Shown piece by piece: positions 23,426-40,008 of a stretch of 64,000 nucleotides of DNA (its first letter is position 1; every line of letters starts with the position of its first letter). The notes below the pieces were generated by a model. The model saw only the letters and a program-made list of their open reading frames with translations. It did no database searches and had not been told where the DNA came from. The translations under genes and the position numbers were made by a program. The stretch spans positions 124,001 through 188,000 of the forward strand of contig WRAZ01000001.1 in NCBI GenBank assembly GCA_009779925.1, read 5' to 3'. This DNA is from Chitinivibrionia bacterium. GTDB taxonomy: Bacteria; Fibrobacterota; Chitinivibrionia; Chitinivibrionales; Chitinivibrionaceae.

Positions 23426-25783
23426 ATGTCAAAACTGCTGATCGTAGAGTCGCCGACAAAATGTAAAACAATTCTGCACTATTTGGGGGCGGGCTATATC
23501 GTAAAAGCGTCGATGGGACACGTTTGCGATTTGCCCGAAAGAGGTTTCGGTATCGACATTCAGAATAATTTTAAGCCCGAATATGTCGTATCTTCCGATA
23601 AAAAAAGTTTTATCGCCGAATTAAAAAAAGACGCCGCAAAAAGCGACGAGATATTTTTGGCGCCTGACCCCGACCGCGAAGGAGAGGCGATTGCGTGGCA
23701 TATAGCCAACTGTTTGGGCGAAAGCGGCGCGGGGAAAATTAAACGAATACAGTTTAACGAAATTACGAAATCAGCAATAACTCACGCTATAGAAAACCCT
23801 CGCGATATAGATATGGACAGGGTAAACGCTCAGCAAGCGCGCCGAATTTTGGACAGAGTTGTCGGCTTTAAGGTTTCCCCGATTTTGTGGAAAACGCTCT
23901 ATAAAGGGCTTTCCGCAGGGCGAGTTCAGAGTGTTGCGCTCAGAATTATCTGCGAGCGCGAAGAAGAAATCCGCAAATTCGATTCAAAAGAACATTGGCA
24001 ACTAACAGCAAATTTTCACGAGCAAAAAACAGACTTTTCCGCAAGGCTGGTCGAGGTTGACGGCAAAAAAATCACAGTTCCCGACGAAAGCGGCAAGGGC
24101 TATTTTGTAGGCAACGAAGGCGCGGCGACAGAGATTTTTGAGCGCATAAAAAACAAAGCGATGAAAGTGGCGGACATCGTTCGTCAAGAGAAAAAACGTC
24201 AGCCGTACGCGCCTTTTATAACGTCGTCGCTTCAACAGGACGCGGCGCGCGCATTCGGTTTTTCGTCGGCAAAAACAATGCAGGTCGCTCAGCAATTATA
24301 CGAGGGCGTGGAACTCGGAAAAAAAGGTAGCGTGGGTCTTATTACATATATGAGAACGGACTCCACAAGGGTCGCCGCAGAGGCGCTTTTTGCCGCAAAA
24401 AACCTGATTTCGCAACTTTATGACGCGCGTTATCAATTGGAAAAACCGCGGTTTTACGGCAAATCGGGAAGCGCGCAGGACGCTCACGAAGCAATTCGCC
24501 CTGCGCACATAGATTTGGCTTTCGCGCCGCAAAATATACAAAGCTATCTTTCAAAAGACCAATTAAAATTATACGAACTTATATGGAAAAGATTTGTTGC
24601 CTCGCAAATGCCCGACGCGGTTTTGGACGCGACAAGAATTGACTTTTCGGTCGAAAATTGCGTTTTCAGAGCAAACGGCTCGGTGATAAAATTTGACGGA
24701 TTTTTGGCGATTTACGAAGAAACAAACGAAAATACCGACGTCGAAAACGGAGAAAACGGCGTTTTGCCCGCGCTTTCGACAGAGCAGAAACTTTTGCCCG
24801 AAAGTATCGACAAAAAACAGCATTTTACAAAGCCGCCCGCGCGATATTCGGAAGCCTCTCTTGTGCGCGAACTCGAAAAGCAAGGCATTGGCAGACCATC
24901 GACTTACGCCTCTATTATCGAAGTTCTTCGCAAGCGCAAATATGCCGAAATGGAGAAAAAACGCTTTATCCCGACCGAAATCGGCTTCAAGGTAAACGGT
25001 ATTTTGGTGCAAAATTTCGATAAAATTTTCGCAGTCGGATTTACTGCGGATATGGAAACAAAACTCGACGAAGTCGAAGCCGGAAACTCCGATTGGATAA
25101 AGACCTTAAAGGATTTCTACGACCCGTTCGAGAAAAATCTTGCCGCGGTAATGGGCGACCTTCAGGAATTGAAAAAACAAAATCAGGAAGTCAGCGATAA
25201 GCCTTGTCCGAATTGCGGCTCGCTTCTTCTTGTAAAAACAAGCAAAAACGGCAAGTTTTTAGCCTGCCCCAAGTTTCCCGAATGCCGACACATAGAGTCG
25301 CTCGACGGCAACAACAATCGCGTAGAAACAGACGAAGTCTGCGAAAAATGCGGCGCAAAAATGCTTATGATAACGCGCGGAAAAACCAAGTTTTTAGGTT
25401 GTAGCGCATATCCGAAATGCGAAAACACCAAATCGCTTTCAAAACCGACGGGAATAAAATGCGTTAAATGCAAAGTAGGCGACTTAGTCGAGCGAAACGG
25501 AAAGCGCGGCTCATTTTTTGCGTGCAATCAATATCCAAAGTGCGATTTTGTAATTTGGAATAAACCCGTTGAAGATACCTGCCCAAGTTGCGGTTGCACG
25601 GTCGCCAACGAAAAAGAGACCAAAAAAGACGGCGCAATCCACATCTGCCCGCTCTGCAATGCCGCGTGGGATTTACAGGGAAATAAAATAGAAGTAGCCG
25701 CGAAAAAGGAGAAACCCGCGGCGAAAACCAAAACTGCAACAAAGAAATCCGCAACTGCCAAAACAACGAAGGCGTCTAAGTAA
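23426..25783 (+). CDS. topA: DNA topoisomerase I (type IA)
   Basis: Relaxes negative supercoils by single-strand passage. The Toprim domain is at the N-terminus (LLIVESPTKCKTI, with DPDREGEAIAWH). The active-site Tyr is Tyr308 in GLITYMRTDST. Four Cys4 zinc ribbons follow from about residue 594: CPNCG, CEKCG, CVKCK and CPSCG, each closed by CP/CS/CN/CP pairs. The Lys/Ala/Thr tail (AAKTKTATKKSATAKTTKAS) probably binds DNA. 785 residues. GGAG lies nine bases before ATG. A partial, decayed copy of the last zinc ribbon and tail occurs at 27533-27615, beyond the hipBA genes. Confidence 0.97.
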   Translation: MSKLLIVESPTKCKTILHYLGAGYIVKASMGHVCDLPERGFGIDIQNNFKPEYVVSSDKKSFIAELKKDAAKSDEIFLAPDPDREGEAIAWHIANCLGESGAGKIKRIQFNEITKSAITHAIENPRDIDMDRVNAQQARRILDRVVGFKVSPILWKTLYKGLSAGRVQSVALRIICEREEEIRKFDSKEHWQLTANFHEQKTDFSARLVEVDGKKITVPDESGKGYFVGNEGAATEIFERIKNKAMKVADIVRQEKKRQPYAPFITSSLQQDAARAFGFSSAKTMQVAQQLYEGVELGKKGSVGLITYMRTDSTRVAAEALFAAKNLISQLYDARYQLEKPRFYGKSGSAQDAHEAIRPAHIDLAFAPQNIQSYLSKDQLKLYELIWKRFVASQMPDAVLDATRIDFSVENCVFRANGSVIKFDGFLAIYEETNENTDVENGENGVLPALSTEQKLLPESIDKKQHFTKPPARYSEASLVRELEKQGIGRPSTYASIIEVLRKRKYAEMEKKRFIPTEIGFKVNGILVQNFDKIFAVGFTADMETKLDEVEAGNSDWIKTLKDFYDPFEKNLAAVMGDLQELKKQNQEVSDKPCPNCGSLLLVKTSKNGKFLACPKFPECRHIESLDGNNNRVETDEVCEKCGAKMLMITRGKTKFLGCSAYPKCENTKSLSKPTGIKCVKCKVGDLVERNGKRGSFFACNQYPKCDFVIWNKPVEDTCPSCGCTVANEKETKKDGAIHICPLCNAAWDLQGNKIEVAAKKEKPAAKTKTATKKSATAKTTKASK

Positions 25784-25790
25784 TAATCGC

Positions 25791-25900
25791 TATTATAGCA
25801 GTTTAACTTATTGTAGGCGCACCGCATACGCTATATTCCACGGTATTACGGTTTCTTAGAGCGCATTCAATACGCCTACAATAACTTAAACTGTATAATG
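25791..25900. repeat. Large imperfect inverted repeat between topA and hipA
   Basis: Arms of about 28 bases: left 25791-25819 contains CAGTTTAACTTATTGTAGGC, right 25873-25900 is its complement with one substitution and one small indel. The arms surround a 53-base loop. It fills the space between convergent topA and hipA. It could act as a two-way terminator but lacks clear T-runs, and it resembles a short MITE or REP-type intergenic element. Confidence 0.5.
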
Positions 25901-25910
25901 TGCTGTAATC

Positions 25911-27131
25911 TCACTCAAACGCTGAAGCCATATAATCAATTTCGCTTTTCTTTATTCCAAAACGCAGGGCAACATTCCGCCATTCTTTTTTCACGATTGC
26001 CTCGATATTTCCCGTGATTTCTTTTGCTTGTGCAAGCGACAGCGAAAATTCGTTGCAAACCGATAAAGCAATATCCGTGTTTGCCGAATAGTTGTCGTAG
26101 TCAATTTTAGTCGATAAAATTTTTGCTTTTACGTCGCGAGGAGTTGGGTTTATATCGTAAACAGGAGAAAGTCGCCACCCGTTGTTTTCGTATAAAAATC
26201 CGTGATTGCGCAAATGGTCGTCGGTGTTGGAAATCAGTATCGAGAAAATTATTCGCTTGAATAATTCCATTTTATCGGCGTTTGGATTTGAGCCGTATTG
26301 CGCCAAAGAATAAGCAATTTCCAGATAACTATGCTCTTCGTTGTCGTTGGCGTTTAACATTGTCATCGCCGAAATAAACGGAATTCTTTTTTCGCCGAGC
26401 CTGTCAAACCTTTCTATAATTAACACATTCTTTTTATCGACCGTTTCAATGCGAAACTTTGGAACATTTACGCCTGCTTTTTGCGCAAGCGTTAATGCAA
26501 CCGCTTCCCATAAAACAACGTTGTAAAAGTCGTCTTTTTTCGGGAATTTTGCTATCGAAATATGCCCGTTTATATCTATCATAGACGACTTTGGTCTTGC
26601 GCCGCCAAGCGACGAACCGGGCTCGAGCAGTAATTGCAAGTCCTGTTCTTTTTCGGATTTATCTATAATTTTTTGCGAGGCGTAAAGCAATTTTGAAAGC
26701 AAAATCAGCGGCGGAATACTATTTTTTTGAGAGTTGTGCAGAAAAATTTCGTCGTTTTTTTCCGTAAATCTAAGCGCTCCTTGACGAACAAAGTCATTAA
26801 CTCCCAACAAATAATCACATTCGCTTAAGGTTTGCGGCGGGCGTTTTTCGTTTTTTGCGTGCAACTGCTCGGCTCTGTTCATCAAAATTCGCCCCCACCT
26901 GTCAGGCATAGTGTCGCCAATAGCGCCGAAAGGGGCTTTGTTTCTGTGAAATTGCCCTTGCGATAATTTTAACAGCGGCTCTATTGCAAAACGTCGTTTG
27001 TCGTTGAGCCATTCCTGTGAATATTCAAAAGAAAATGTTTCCTGTCCATTGCGAAAATTACTCCACAAAGTTGCAATTTTGTGGTTTTGCCCGTCCGAAT
27101 TTAACCAAACGCCGATATTTCTGTTGCTCAT
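25911..27131 (-). CDS. hipA: HipA-family toxin kinase
   Basis: Serine/threonine kinase toxin; characterised HipA proteins phosphorylate aminoacyl-tRNA synthetases and induce persistence. 406 residues. The N-terminal HipA_N domain includes GDTMPDRWG. The kinase signature SSLGGARPK is at 173-181, ERFDR at 240-244, the catalytic loop NTDDHLRNHGF at 302-312 and the metal-binding YDINP at 325-329. All key catalytic residues appear intact. It overlaps the antitoxin gene by four bases (ATGA), as usual for this pair, with antitoxin first. The target cannot be told from sequence. Confidence 0.93.
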   Translation of the reverse strand: MSNRNIGVWLNSDGQNHKIATLWSNFRNGQETFSFEYSQEWLNDKRRFAIEPLLKLSQGQFHRNKAPFGAIGDTMPDRWGRILMNRAEQLHAKNEKRPPQTLSECDYLLGVNDFVRQGALRFTEKNDEIFLHNSQKNSIPPLILLSKLLYASQKIIDKSEKEQDLQLLLEPGSSLGGARPKSSMIDINGHISIAKFPKKDDFYNVVLWEAVALTLAQKAGVNVPKFRIETVDKKNVLIIERFDRLGEKRIPFISAMTMLNANDNEEHSYLEIAYSLAQYGSNPNADKMELFKRIIFSILISNTDDHLRNHGFLYENNGWRLSPVYDINPTPRDVKAKILSTKIDYDNYSANTDIALSVCNEFSLSLAQAKEITGNIEAIVKKEWRNVALRFGIKKSEIDYMASAFE

Positions 27132-27448
27132 TTTTCACTCCTCGGCGACCGAATTCTCTTCGGAAGTTGCTCGTCTGCAAGGACTTTTCCCGTAAAATCA
27201 TATTTTATATCGGCGATGTCTTTCAGGCGCTCTATCATATCCAAACAAAACAAAACAGAGGCATACGCCGCCATAGAAACGCTTGCCTCGCCCTTTTCTA
27301 TTTTGGAGAGAGTAATCTTCGATATTCCCGCTCTTTCCGCCATAAGAGCAGTCGTTATTCTCCTGCGTTTTCGCGCGTTGCCAATGTCTTGCCCTAATTT
27401 GATTATGGCAAATTTTACAGGAATATAGATATTTATCGCTTTCGACAT
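27128..27448 (-). CDS. hipB: HipB-like XRE-family antitoxin
   Basis: 106 residues with a helix-turn-helix near 19-75: LGQDIGNARKRRRITTALMA, ERAGISKITLSKIEKGEASV. It is expected to bind HipA and repress the operon. The C-terminal tail (KRIRSPRSEK) is basic. AAAGGAG lies before ATG 27448, and a short AT-rich palindrome (27476-27488) stands where an autoregulatory operator would be. It overlaps hipA by four bases. Confidence 0.9.
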   Translation of the reverse strand: MSKAINIYIPVKFAIIKLGQDIGNARKRRRITTALMAERAGISKITLSKIEKGEASVSMAAYASVLFCLDMIERLKDIADIKYDFTGKVLADEQLPKRIRSPRSEK

Positions 27449-27475
27449 TTTTCGCTCCTTTTGCAGTTAAAGCAT

Positions 27476-27488
27476 AGTATAATATACT
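27476..27488. promoter_or_regulatory. Candidate hipBA operator/promoter palindrome
   Basis: AGTATA-A-TATACT, a perfect 13-base palindrome 28 bases upstream of the hipB start. It fits autorepression by an XRE protein, but it could equally be part of the AT-rich promoter. Confidence 0.35.
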
Positions 27489-27532
27489 TTGTGCCGCGTA
27501 TTGTATGCGATAGTTTGTTTTATTTTTGAAAA

Positions 27533-27615
27533 ATGGCTTGGAGTAAACCTGTTGAAGGTGCTTGTCCAAGTTGCGGATGTACCGAAGAAAGAAGATTAAC
27601 TAAAACTGCAACCCT
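27533..27615 (+). pseudogene. Relic of topA C-terminal zinc ribbon and tail
   Basis: Reading from ATG 27533, the frame gives MAWSKPVEGACPSCGCT, then EERRL, then TKTAT. The first block matches topA codons at 25556-25600 (WNKPVEDTCPSCGCT): 12 of 15 residues and 36 of 45 bases are identical. The TKTAT block matches the topA tail near 25727. The sequence between these blocks in topA is missing. The short frame continues to a stop at 27646, but its end only reads antisense through znuA. It is best explained as a deleted duplicate or ancestral remnant of topA, now separated from it by hipBA. Confidence 0.75.
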
Positions 27616-28481
27616 CGAAACAAATTCTCGTAGTTTCTTTGCATAAATTCAAAGAAACTTGTTCTTTGGTCGAAATCTTGCTGAGTTATTGTATGAACGC
27701 TGTAAAGCGGAAGAATTTCCACGCCTGTTTCGTTGGCTATTGTTTGGGCGAGCGCTTTGCTTTCGAGGGCGTCGTAAAAGATGTATTCTGTTCCGTTTTT
27801 GCGAATTTGGTCGATAATCGTCGCAACTTGTTTTGGCGACGGCTCCACCGATGAGGTAAATCCTTGCATTACGGGTATGAATTCTAAATTGTACCTGTTT
27901 GCAAAATATGAAAATGAATTGTGTCCTGCGAAAAATACTTCGCGTCGTTTGACTGTTGCAAACTGCTCTTTGTAGCGCAAGTCCAAATCACTGAATAGCT
28001 TAATTAAATTTTGTGCGTTTTCATTAAAAAACTCTGCGTTTTTAGGCAAAAGTTTGATTAAATTATCGCGGATTGTTTCTATTATATGCGGTATTCTTTC
28101 GGGATCTATCCAAATGTGCGGGTCGGCGGCGCTGTTTTGAGCGTGGCTGTGGTCGTGGTTGTTGTCATTGCAAATATGAAGCTCTCCCGCCGCGGCAAAA
28201 GAGACGGACGATTTCGCTCTTTGAGCAAATTTACTCGCCCACGGCTCAAAATCCGCGGAAATGTAGAAAAATAAATTTGCCGCGCTTATATTGGCGACGT
28301 CTTTGGGTTTCGGATTAAAAGAGTGCGGGTCTATCCCCGGTCCTGCAAGAAGTATAAGGTCAACCTCGTTTTGGGCGACAACGGATACCATATCGTATAT
28401 CGGATAAATAGAAACAACAACAAGCGGTTTGTTGGAAAAAACCGCTGAAGTTAAAAGTAAAAGCGCCGCAAAGAACCTCAT
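27600..28481 (-). CDS. ZnuA/TroA-like metal-binding ABC transporter solute-binding protein
   Basis: Periplasmic zinc/manganese-binding protein of cluster 9. Signal peptide FFAALLLLTSAVFS. The conserved metal ligand regions are DPHSFNPKPKD, ADPHIWIDPE, FFAGHNSFSYFA, and the late Asp in YFYDALESK-like sequence. A short His/Asp-rich loop (NDNNHDHSHA) of the type found in zinc-specific members precedes ADPHIW. ATG 28481 has GGAG five bases upstream; an ATG at 28499 is less likely. No permease or ATPase gene is adjacent. The neighbouring L28 has CxxC zinc motifs, so zinc homeostasis may link them. Confidence 0.88.
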   Translation of the reverse strand: MRFFAALLLLTSAVFSNKPLVVVSIYPIYDMVSVVAQNEVDLILLAGPGIDPHSFNPKPKDVANISAANLFFYISADFEPWASKFAQRAKSSVSFAAAGELHICNDNNHDHSHAQNSAADPHIWIDPERIPHIIETIRDNLIKLLPKNAEFFNENAQNLIKLFSDLDLRYKEQFATVKRREVFFAGHNSFSYFANRYNLEFIPVMQGFTSSVEPSPKQVATIIDQIRKNGTEYIFYDALESKALAQTIANETGVEILPLYSVHTITQQDFDQRTSFFEFMQRNYENLFRGLQF

Positions 28482-28502
28482 AGTTCTCCGTCCGTCCAAA
28501 GA

Positions 28503-38667: not shown

Positions 38668-40008
38668 TTACAAAGGCCAACTTTTTAATTTAATTTCCTT
38701 AAAGTTCTCATACTGTTTGTCGTCTATTTCCAAATCAAAAGTATTTGCATTTAATACGTTTTCAACAACGTTATGTCCTTCAAATTTTTCCAAAAAATGC
38801 TCAAAGTTTATGTTTTTGATTCGTTCTTGCTCGTCTTTACTTTGATATAACTTTTCGATTCCTGCTTGCATATCTGAAATATTTTCAAAAAGATAATCAT
38901 AGTTTTTGGGCAAATATTCGTGAAATGTAAATGCTAAATTATCGGTGTTTTTGAATGCCACAATCGGTACTCGTAAGCTCATTAAATCCACCATAGTAAG
39001 CGCGCTCGAATGCGGAATACTATCTATAAAAACGTCGGCGCACTTAAAATATAACTTAAAGTTATCTTTGAAATCCATAAGTATAAACCTCTTGGGCATA
39101 TTTTTTTTATCAAAGATTTCTTTTTGTTTTTTGTCAAATCTGGTAATTAGTACATGCCATAGATTTTCGTTTTTTTCCAGTAATTTTTTTATCATTTCCA
39201 AATACGGAGAAGTATCATTTTCGAAAAGCTTATAAGCCAAACAACCGGTCATAGTACAAATTGCATTTTCGGGAATACCCATATTTCGTCTTACCGTTGC
39301 GATTTCTTGCTCGCTAAAAGTCGGCAAATTGTCTTTTGTTAAATAACATAAGCCTAAAACTTTTGTGTTCTTAAATCCTCTGTATTTTTGAGTTAAATAG
39401 GCAGTCGCAGGCATACCTTCCCAAATTAAGTGGGCAAAACTCATCCCTAAACTTGAATGTTGCGAGCCTATATTGCAAAAAATAATTTTAATTTTAGTAT
39501 ATTTATTCAGCAAGGCAAGCAAACCAACGGCAAAAGAGTCGTCCATGTGAATAAATGTTATCAACACGCTCGGAGAAAACTTCATCAATTTTTTCATCAA
39601 TTTTTTCAACAACCCTTTTTCATTCATCCAATCAAAATCGACGCCGCTTATTTTAGAGTATTTTTTAATTTCCGCCACTTTTAAAGAAGCATTTTTTTCA
39701 GTGTCGGTCTTTTTGGTTAAAAACAAATTGCTTTTATATTTTTTCGGCAATGCCTGTGCAAAATTTTTCAACAACTCCGTATGCCCTCCCGTACGACCAA
39801 GCGTAGATGCAAGAAAGGCTACATTGTTTTTGTTTATAGCGGTATCGGATGCGGGGCGCGGAACAATAGATAAAGCATAGTCGCCAATTTTTTTATCCAG
39901 ATAACGAGTGTCAAATATGGGATTTATTGCAACAAACTCTTCTTTAAGGGCATAAAACTTAGAAAATTTTCTTCCCCAAGTTTTCCTCATTTTAGTTTTC
40001 AAACCCAT
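38668..40008 (-). CDS. GT-B glycosyltransferase (family 1/4-like)
   Basis: 446 residues. The N-terminal Rossmann region carries AFLASTLGRTGGHTELLKNF, and the C-terminal donor domain FKLYFKCADVFIDSIPHSSA and LTMVDLMSLRVPIVAFKNTD, where the SALTM segment holds the GT4-type diphosphate-binding position. A short KLMKKLMK duplication is seen near residue 137. One base separates its ATG from the GNAT gene stop, with GAGGCTCG as ribosome site. Likely cytosolic, adding a hexose-type sugar; specificity unknown. Confidence 0.75.
   Translation of the reverse strand: MGLKTKMRKTWGRKFSKFYALKEEFVAINPIFDTRYLDKKIGDYALSIVPRPASDTAINKNNVAFLASTLGRTGGHTELLKNFAQALPKKYKSNLFLTKKTDTEKNASLKVAEIKKYSKISGVDFDWMNEKGLLKKLMKKLMKFSPSVLITFIHMDDSFAVGLLALLNKYTKIKIIFCNIGSQHSSLGMSFAHLIWEGMPATAYLTQKYRGFKNTKVLGLCYLTKDNLPTFSEQEIATVRRNMGIPENAICTMTGCLAYKLFENDTSPYLEMIKKLLEKNENLWHVLITRFDKKQKEIFDKKNMPKRFILMDFKDNFKLYFKCADVFIDSIPHSSALTMVDLMSLRVPIVAFKNTDNLAFTFHEYLPKNYDYLFENISDMQAGIEKLYQSKDEQERIKNINFEHFLEKFEGHNVVENVLNANTFDLEIDDKQYENFKEIKLKSWPL

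Follow-up and report, generated by a model that had tools for sequence, protein, structure and literature searches.

A probably decayed second copy of the topA 3' end beyond hipBA in a Chitinivibrionia bacterium, a candidate case of insertion with long target duplication

Some integrative elements regenerate the 3' end of the gene in which they insert, leaving an intact end on one side of the insert and a displaced fragment on the other. Insertion with long target duplication has reportedly been described for restriction-modification (RM) genes, by Nobusato et al. in 2000. According to an excerpt of one account, RM systems can insert with long target duplications of variable length, on the order of 100 bp, and the movement of RM genes is often tied to rearrangements (PMC3874152); excerpts of two further papers also report the insertion of RM genes with long target duplication (PMC1643837, PMC3031569), and a passage of a fourth likens the apparent mobility of RM systems to that of toxin-antitoxin systems, citing Nobusato (PMC2654758). 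The locus described here, in which a toxin-antitoxin module lies between an intact topA gene and a degenerate fragment of its 3' end, bears on how addiction and defence genes come to enter chromosomes when no known mobile element carries them.

The topA-hipBA-znuA locus

The window analysed is a stretch of 64,000 nucleotides from a Chitinivibrionia bacterium (assembly GCA_009779925.1, contig WRAZ01000001.1, positions 124,001 to 188,000, forward strand), and coordinates of the locus refer to it. It holds an intact topA gene for DNA topoisomerase I (23426..25783, plus strand, 785 aa), with Pfam matches to Topoisom_bac, Toprim and three Zn_ribbon_Top1 domains and a protein 79% identical to that of the sister genome (G001, 97% complete). 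Beyond it come an imperfect palindrome (25799..25893), the toxin kinase gene hipA (25911..27131, minus strand, 406 aa; Pfam HipA_C, 1.2e-46), the adjoining antitoxin/repressor gene hipB (27128..27448, minus strand, 106 aa; Pfam HTH_3, with HTH_31 just under the cut-off) and znuA (27600..28499, minus strand; Pfam ZnuA, 5.2e-72). The two hip genes stand in hipB-hipA order and overlap, encoding side by side a HipA kinase-like protein and an HTH antitoxin. The original observation that hipBA and an inverted repeat separate topA from the relic is borne out by the HipA_C match and by the palindrome arms (25799-25835 with 25857-25893; 37 nt, 81% complementary). Other full or partial copies of this dispersed element of about 100 bases occur on contigs C45 and C14 (two places) and at C1:101413; the element may be a terminator scattered through the genome or a repeat of MITE-like type.

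The relic lies past hipB, just short of the znuA stop codon. Its best ungapped match, at 27538..27582 on the plus strand, agrees at 37 of 45 bases (82%; direct repeat family D1) with the topA source segment WNKPVEDTCPSCGC at 25555..25599, also on the plus strand, and a gapped alignment extends to about 27595. A recount of the 15 codons that share a frame (27539-27583 against 25556-25600) returned the 12 identical residues and 36/45 identical bases originally claimed. When the 114 bases from 27533 to 27646 were searched against the own genome at E <= 0.001, only the query itself and topA (E 3.1e-6) were recovered, and when the whole 270-kb contig was compared with itself, the relic/topA pair reached E 8e-4. 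Chance was discarded as the source of the match, 0/200 dinucleotide shuffles of 27449-27599 reaching 37/45 against topA (best 45-base window, 29). Judged from its sequence, the relic thus defined is a real duplicate of topA.

The extent of the duplicate is short. Sequence derived from topA stops at about 27582-27595, at most 18 bases before the znuA stop codon at 27600, and the bases from 27600 onward are the reverse complement of the znuA end (..YENLFRGLQF-stop; the sister-species ZnuA C-terminus reads ..YENLTKGLKCPQ-stop). The claim that TKTAT of the topA tail resumes after a gap has therefore been dropped, the five residues being a chance reading of znuA antisense. Additional homology 5' of 27538, offered by a lenient alignment, was distrusted as gap-rich. 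Of the eight positions at which relic and topA differ, seven show a transition, in each instance C-to-T or A-to-G as read along the plus strand, in a sample too small to interpret.

Origin of the relic

Whether the fragment is a self-copy or foreign was addressed by alignment to other topA genes, as first proposed, and the answer is in favour of a self-copy. Across the 45-base segment, relic and own topA share 37/45 bases, own topA and that of the sister genome 36/45, and relic and sister topA 30/45. At the nine sites where own topA differs from the sister gene, the relic carries the own base at seven and a base unlike both at two. With the sister gene deciding, all six polarisable changes fall on the relic side, own topA keeping the sister base (two-sided p 0.03), which argues that the relic split from the own topA lineage after divergence from the sister genome and has changed faster since. 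The relic is hence supported as a decaying self-copy of own topA.

Comparison with other genomes places the relic at what reads as a double junction, where the gain of hipBA meets a split of the znu operon. On the one hand, a hipA search of the sister genome gave no match at E <= 0.001, and of 11 genomes searched, four, counting the own genome, had a hipA-like match. On the other hand, znuA-znuC-znuB form one run in the sister genome and znuC adjoins znuA in genome G003; the own genome has its best znuC match, along with znuB, away from znuA, on contig C5 behind a 547-aa ORF. The check originally suggested, an inspection of relatives without hipBA, was answered in part: the sister genome is such a relative by this search, with a gene after topA that differs from the one in the own genome, and a clean empty topA site was not seen.

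The explanation regarded as probable takes the relic for a second copy of a stretch of the topA 3' end, since decayed, that was produced when hipBA inserted with a long target duplication and was later cut short against znuA. Under this explanation, hipBA would have entered at the topA end and a stretch of the target would have been duplicated in the same event. The left copy would have stayed joined to topA, intact under selection, and the right copy, past hipBA, would have been free to decay. A later deletion or rearrangement would then have joined the right copy to the znuA 3' end, truncating the copy and parting znuA from znuCB. That second event must be assumed because the right copy ends inside the ribbon and meets znuA; plain target duplication predicts a right copy running through the topA stop into the old downstream sequence, and this is not the case here. 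The insertion and the duplication would constitute a single event, the steps would have followed one another in the order given, and the molecular route may have been single-ended and homologous, or replicative with microhomology-driven joining. Of the insertion, duplication and decay at the topA end that had been proposed, the self-copy and its decay are thus seen, and the link to hipBA is one that we infer.

Less probable, and still to be weighed seriously, is an origin of the relic as a by-product of the rearrangement that separated znuA from znuCB, that is, as a breakpoint duplication to which hipBA, arriving before or after, would not have been the cause. The relic ends within 18 bases of the znuA stop, and a breakpoint is placed at its end because znuC is expected there, just past that stop; moreover, an excerpt of PMC3031569 links RM genes to inversions and translocations. 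The relic nonetheless lies beyond hipBA and is oriented like topA, as target duplication predicts, and the 12 kb around znuCB yielded no topA or znuA remnant, the one match being of 16 bases at E 0.07.

Arrival of the relic together with hipBA, as the topA tail of another species, is unlikely. The excess of relic/topA differences at third codon positions (5/8, p 0.09) resembles that of a gene diverging under selection, but a sister allele should split the polarisable changes between the two sides, and all of them are on that of the relic. Furthermore, WSKPVEGACPSCGC occurs in none of the 11 topA genes read, and the sole near topA in the genome contigs is that of the sister genome, at 69% over the C-terminal part, followed by one at 44%, in a genus that is thinly sampled. 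A degenerate pattern for the relic peptide had no match in viral contigs, and a DNA search at E <= 0.001 found the relic in 0/59 other relatives; this search also missed their topA genes and therefore excludes close copies only. A close foreign topA allele is, on these comparisons, a possible but not favoured source.

An assembly error joining a topA-like piece to the znuA region would be conceivable in a draft of 88 contigs, but it is very improbable: the relic differs from topA at 8/45 bases, so that it is not a misplaced copy of topA reads, and the nearest genes on each side keep the gene order of the sister genome. Least credible of all is a real 37-codon gene at 27533-27643 (stop to 27646) with a CPSCGC motif, which has an ATG start and a frame open across its 37 codons but covers just part of the ribbon, consists in its second half of znuA antisense and is without a Pfam match; conservation of such a gene, named at the outset as the result that would contradict a relic, was not seen in the DNA search of the 59 other relatives, to which distant forms are invisible.

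Direct repeats elsewhere in the genome

The reading of the relic as a product of hipBA insertion is set in context by a screen for repeats of at least 40 bases and at least 75% identity with 300-3000 bases between them, from which pairs lying more than 90% inside ORFs of at least 100 aa on both sides were dropped. In the own genome (G000), the screen took in all 270 kb of contig C1 and roughly 90 kb from each of C2-C5, 629 kb in total, and found 23 direct and 2 inverted pairs before filtering against 14 and 0 after it, the 14 direct pairs forming 11 loci (41-146 bp). Counts before and after filtering were 11 and 5 direct pairs, with 0 inverted, in 341 kb of the sister genome, 0 of either kind in 232 kb of G003, and 5 and 2 direct, with 2 inverted at both stages, in 160 kb of G013. 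A control of 79 loci of other bacteria (886 kb) gave 89 direct and 0 inverted pairs before filtering and 2 direct pairs (1 locus) and 0 inverted after it; the own genome differs from this control at p 0.0002 by pairs and 0.0005 by loci, with the proviso that the control loci, which are short and centred on topA, may give too low a count. Both control pairs concern a single Fic-family gene, flanked directly by one of them and spanned by the other: in this deltaproteobacterial locus (L067, 9212-10698), the gene lies between 57-base direct repeats of 95% identity. Ordinary tandem duplication likewise yields direct rather than inverted repeats, and some of the 11 loci are likely to have other causes.

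About half of the 11 loci enclose toxin-antitoxin or defence-type genes, and the impression is that toxin and defence genes are enriched among them. Besides the topA locus, with hipBA as its insert, a YhcG nuclease (Pfam) adjoins the repeated 3' end of a 226-aa gene at C1 12674, a DUF4143 ATPase at C2 43943 is flanked on both sides by the 3' end of an rlmB-like gene, and a RhuM-family protein adjoins a partial copy of a transporter-like gene at C5 39673. The inserts at two loci are of neither toxin nor defence type: at C3 59896, repeated gene starts flank a PagL-like protein, and at C1 75289, ispG and ssb are parted by two genes, of which one has a zinc ribbon. The repeats are mostly intergenic around a nucleotidyltransferase-HEPN pair that is accompanied by an HTH gene at C1 20570, where at least four copies fall within 2.2 kb, around a DUF2442 gene (below cut-off) at C1 43527 and around a Schlafen AlbA_2 protein with a Fic-like C-terminus at C2 34378; the repeats of these three could represent dispersed terminators. 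The locus at C1 54792 looks like paralogous gene starts and that at C3 30022 like a dispersed repeat. An additional case beyond the 11 loci, an antitoxin-like ORF without a Pfam match at a thiH-like locus (C1 104189/104792), was lost to the ORF filter because of a probably spurious ORF. The designations ispG, ssb, thiH, rlmB, RM-split gene, transporter, antitoxin-like and MNT are presumptive and in part read by eye; Pfam assigns Radical_SAM/BATS to the thiH-like protein and SpoU methylase to the rlmB-like protein.

PADLOC has candidate-defence matches at E 8e-21 or better for three of the ten proteins compared with it, namely YhcG, DUF4143 and the nucleotidyltransferase, and one at 6e-11 for HipA; the HEPN matches are weak, and nothing was obtained for DUF2442 or the antitoxin-like ORF. 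The topA relic, at 45 bp and 82% identity, falls within the range of the nine other listed loci (41-98 bp, 80-98%). Comparison by eye of the insert ends of the ten listed loci revealed no common sequence, and a Pfam search of the inner genes revealed no transposase.

Five loci could be compared with the sister genome (topA, thiH-like, the ribH side, ispG and rlmB-like), and a clear empty site is present in one of them, ispG/ssb, where 76-bp repeats of 93% identity surround the two extra genes and ispG and ssb are adjacent in the sister genome. There, the rlmB-like gene is followed by another neighbour and no DUF4143 gene, and the neighbours differ likewise for the thiH-like gene and for ribH, which adjoins the YhcG locus in the own genome; the transporter-like gene of C5 had no match in that genome. 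The C5 relic is in two pieces (39673-39727 and 39716-39792), whose match offsets differ by 174 bases and which overlap at a 12-base near-repeat, a pattern that reads as internal loss.

Within the sister genome itself, an N6 methyltransferase gene at L202 6515-7646 is apparently split by a PIN-like gene (below cut-off) with a small partner, between repeats of 72 bases and 96% identity. This is the only one of its five direct pairs that is clearly of such a kind; a second lies among paralogous chemotaxis-type genes and encloses a DUF2442-DUF4160 pair, and the remaining three look like tandem paralogues.

Relation to known insertion systems

The interest of these observations lies in the number of similar scars and not in the topA relic alone. 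As a tentative proposal, this lineage might possess a working, transposase-free route by which toxin-antitoxin and phage-defence genes come to lie at gene ends, the target being duplicated over about 40-100 bp, and which leaves scars of graded age (80-98% identity) among which the topA relic would be one of the oldest. The presence of several scars of differing age, together with a sister genome, makes insert borders readable both fresh and decayed, and suggests that toxin-antitoxin and other defence genes may share the route described for RM genes. A literature search confined to the opening parts of abstracts of openly licensed papers returned no case of this kind for hipBA.

As a toxin-antitoxin module, the pair described here agrees with hipBA type II systems in gene order, gene overlap, HipA_C domain and HTH antitoxin, toxicity and its neutralisation being predicted; the genes are ordinary, and the sole point of interest is their placement beside topA. 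With integrative elements that regenerate a 3' end, the locus shares an intact topA end on one side and a displaced fragment on the opposite one, but it differs in that none of the genes separating topA from znuA encodes an integrase, and in repeats that vary in length and sequence among loci.

The closest likeness is to the insertion of RM genes with long target duplication. In both cases, small addiction or defence genes are accompanied by direct repeats of variable length, on the order of 100 bp, with no tie to a known mobile element and with a link to rearrangements. At the loci described here, direct repeats of target sequence do flank the inserts and vary in length (45 bp at topA, 41-98 bp at the nine other listed loci), and neither a transposase, by Pfam among the inner genes, nor terminal inverted repeats, by eye at ten loci, are associated with them. 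The differences lie in the inserts, which here comprise toxin-antitoxin and candidate defence genes, in the host, an uncultured organism related to a Chitinivibrionia MAG, and in the state of the topA case, an old one with a truncated second copy: copies complete at both insert borders are not found at topA, where the right copy ends inside the ribbon, and the locus would belong to this class by way of a later truncation. With that qualification, the event at topA and hipBA resembles, by analogy, a kind of insertion that is already known.
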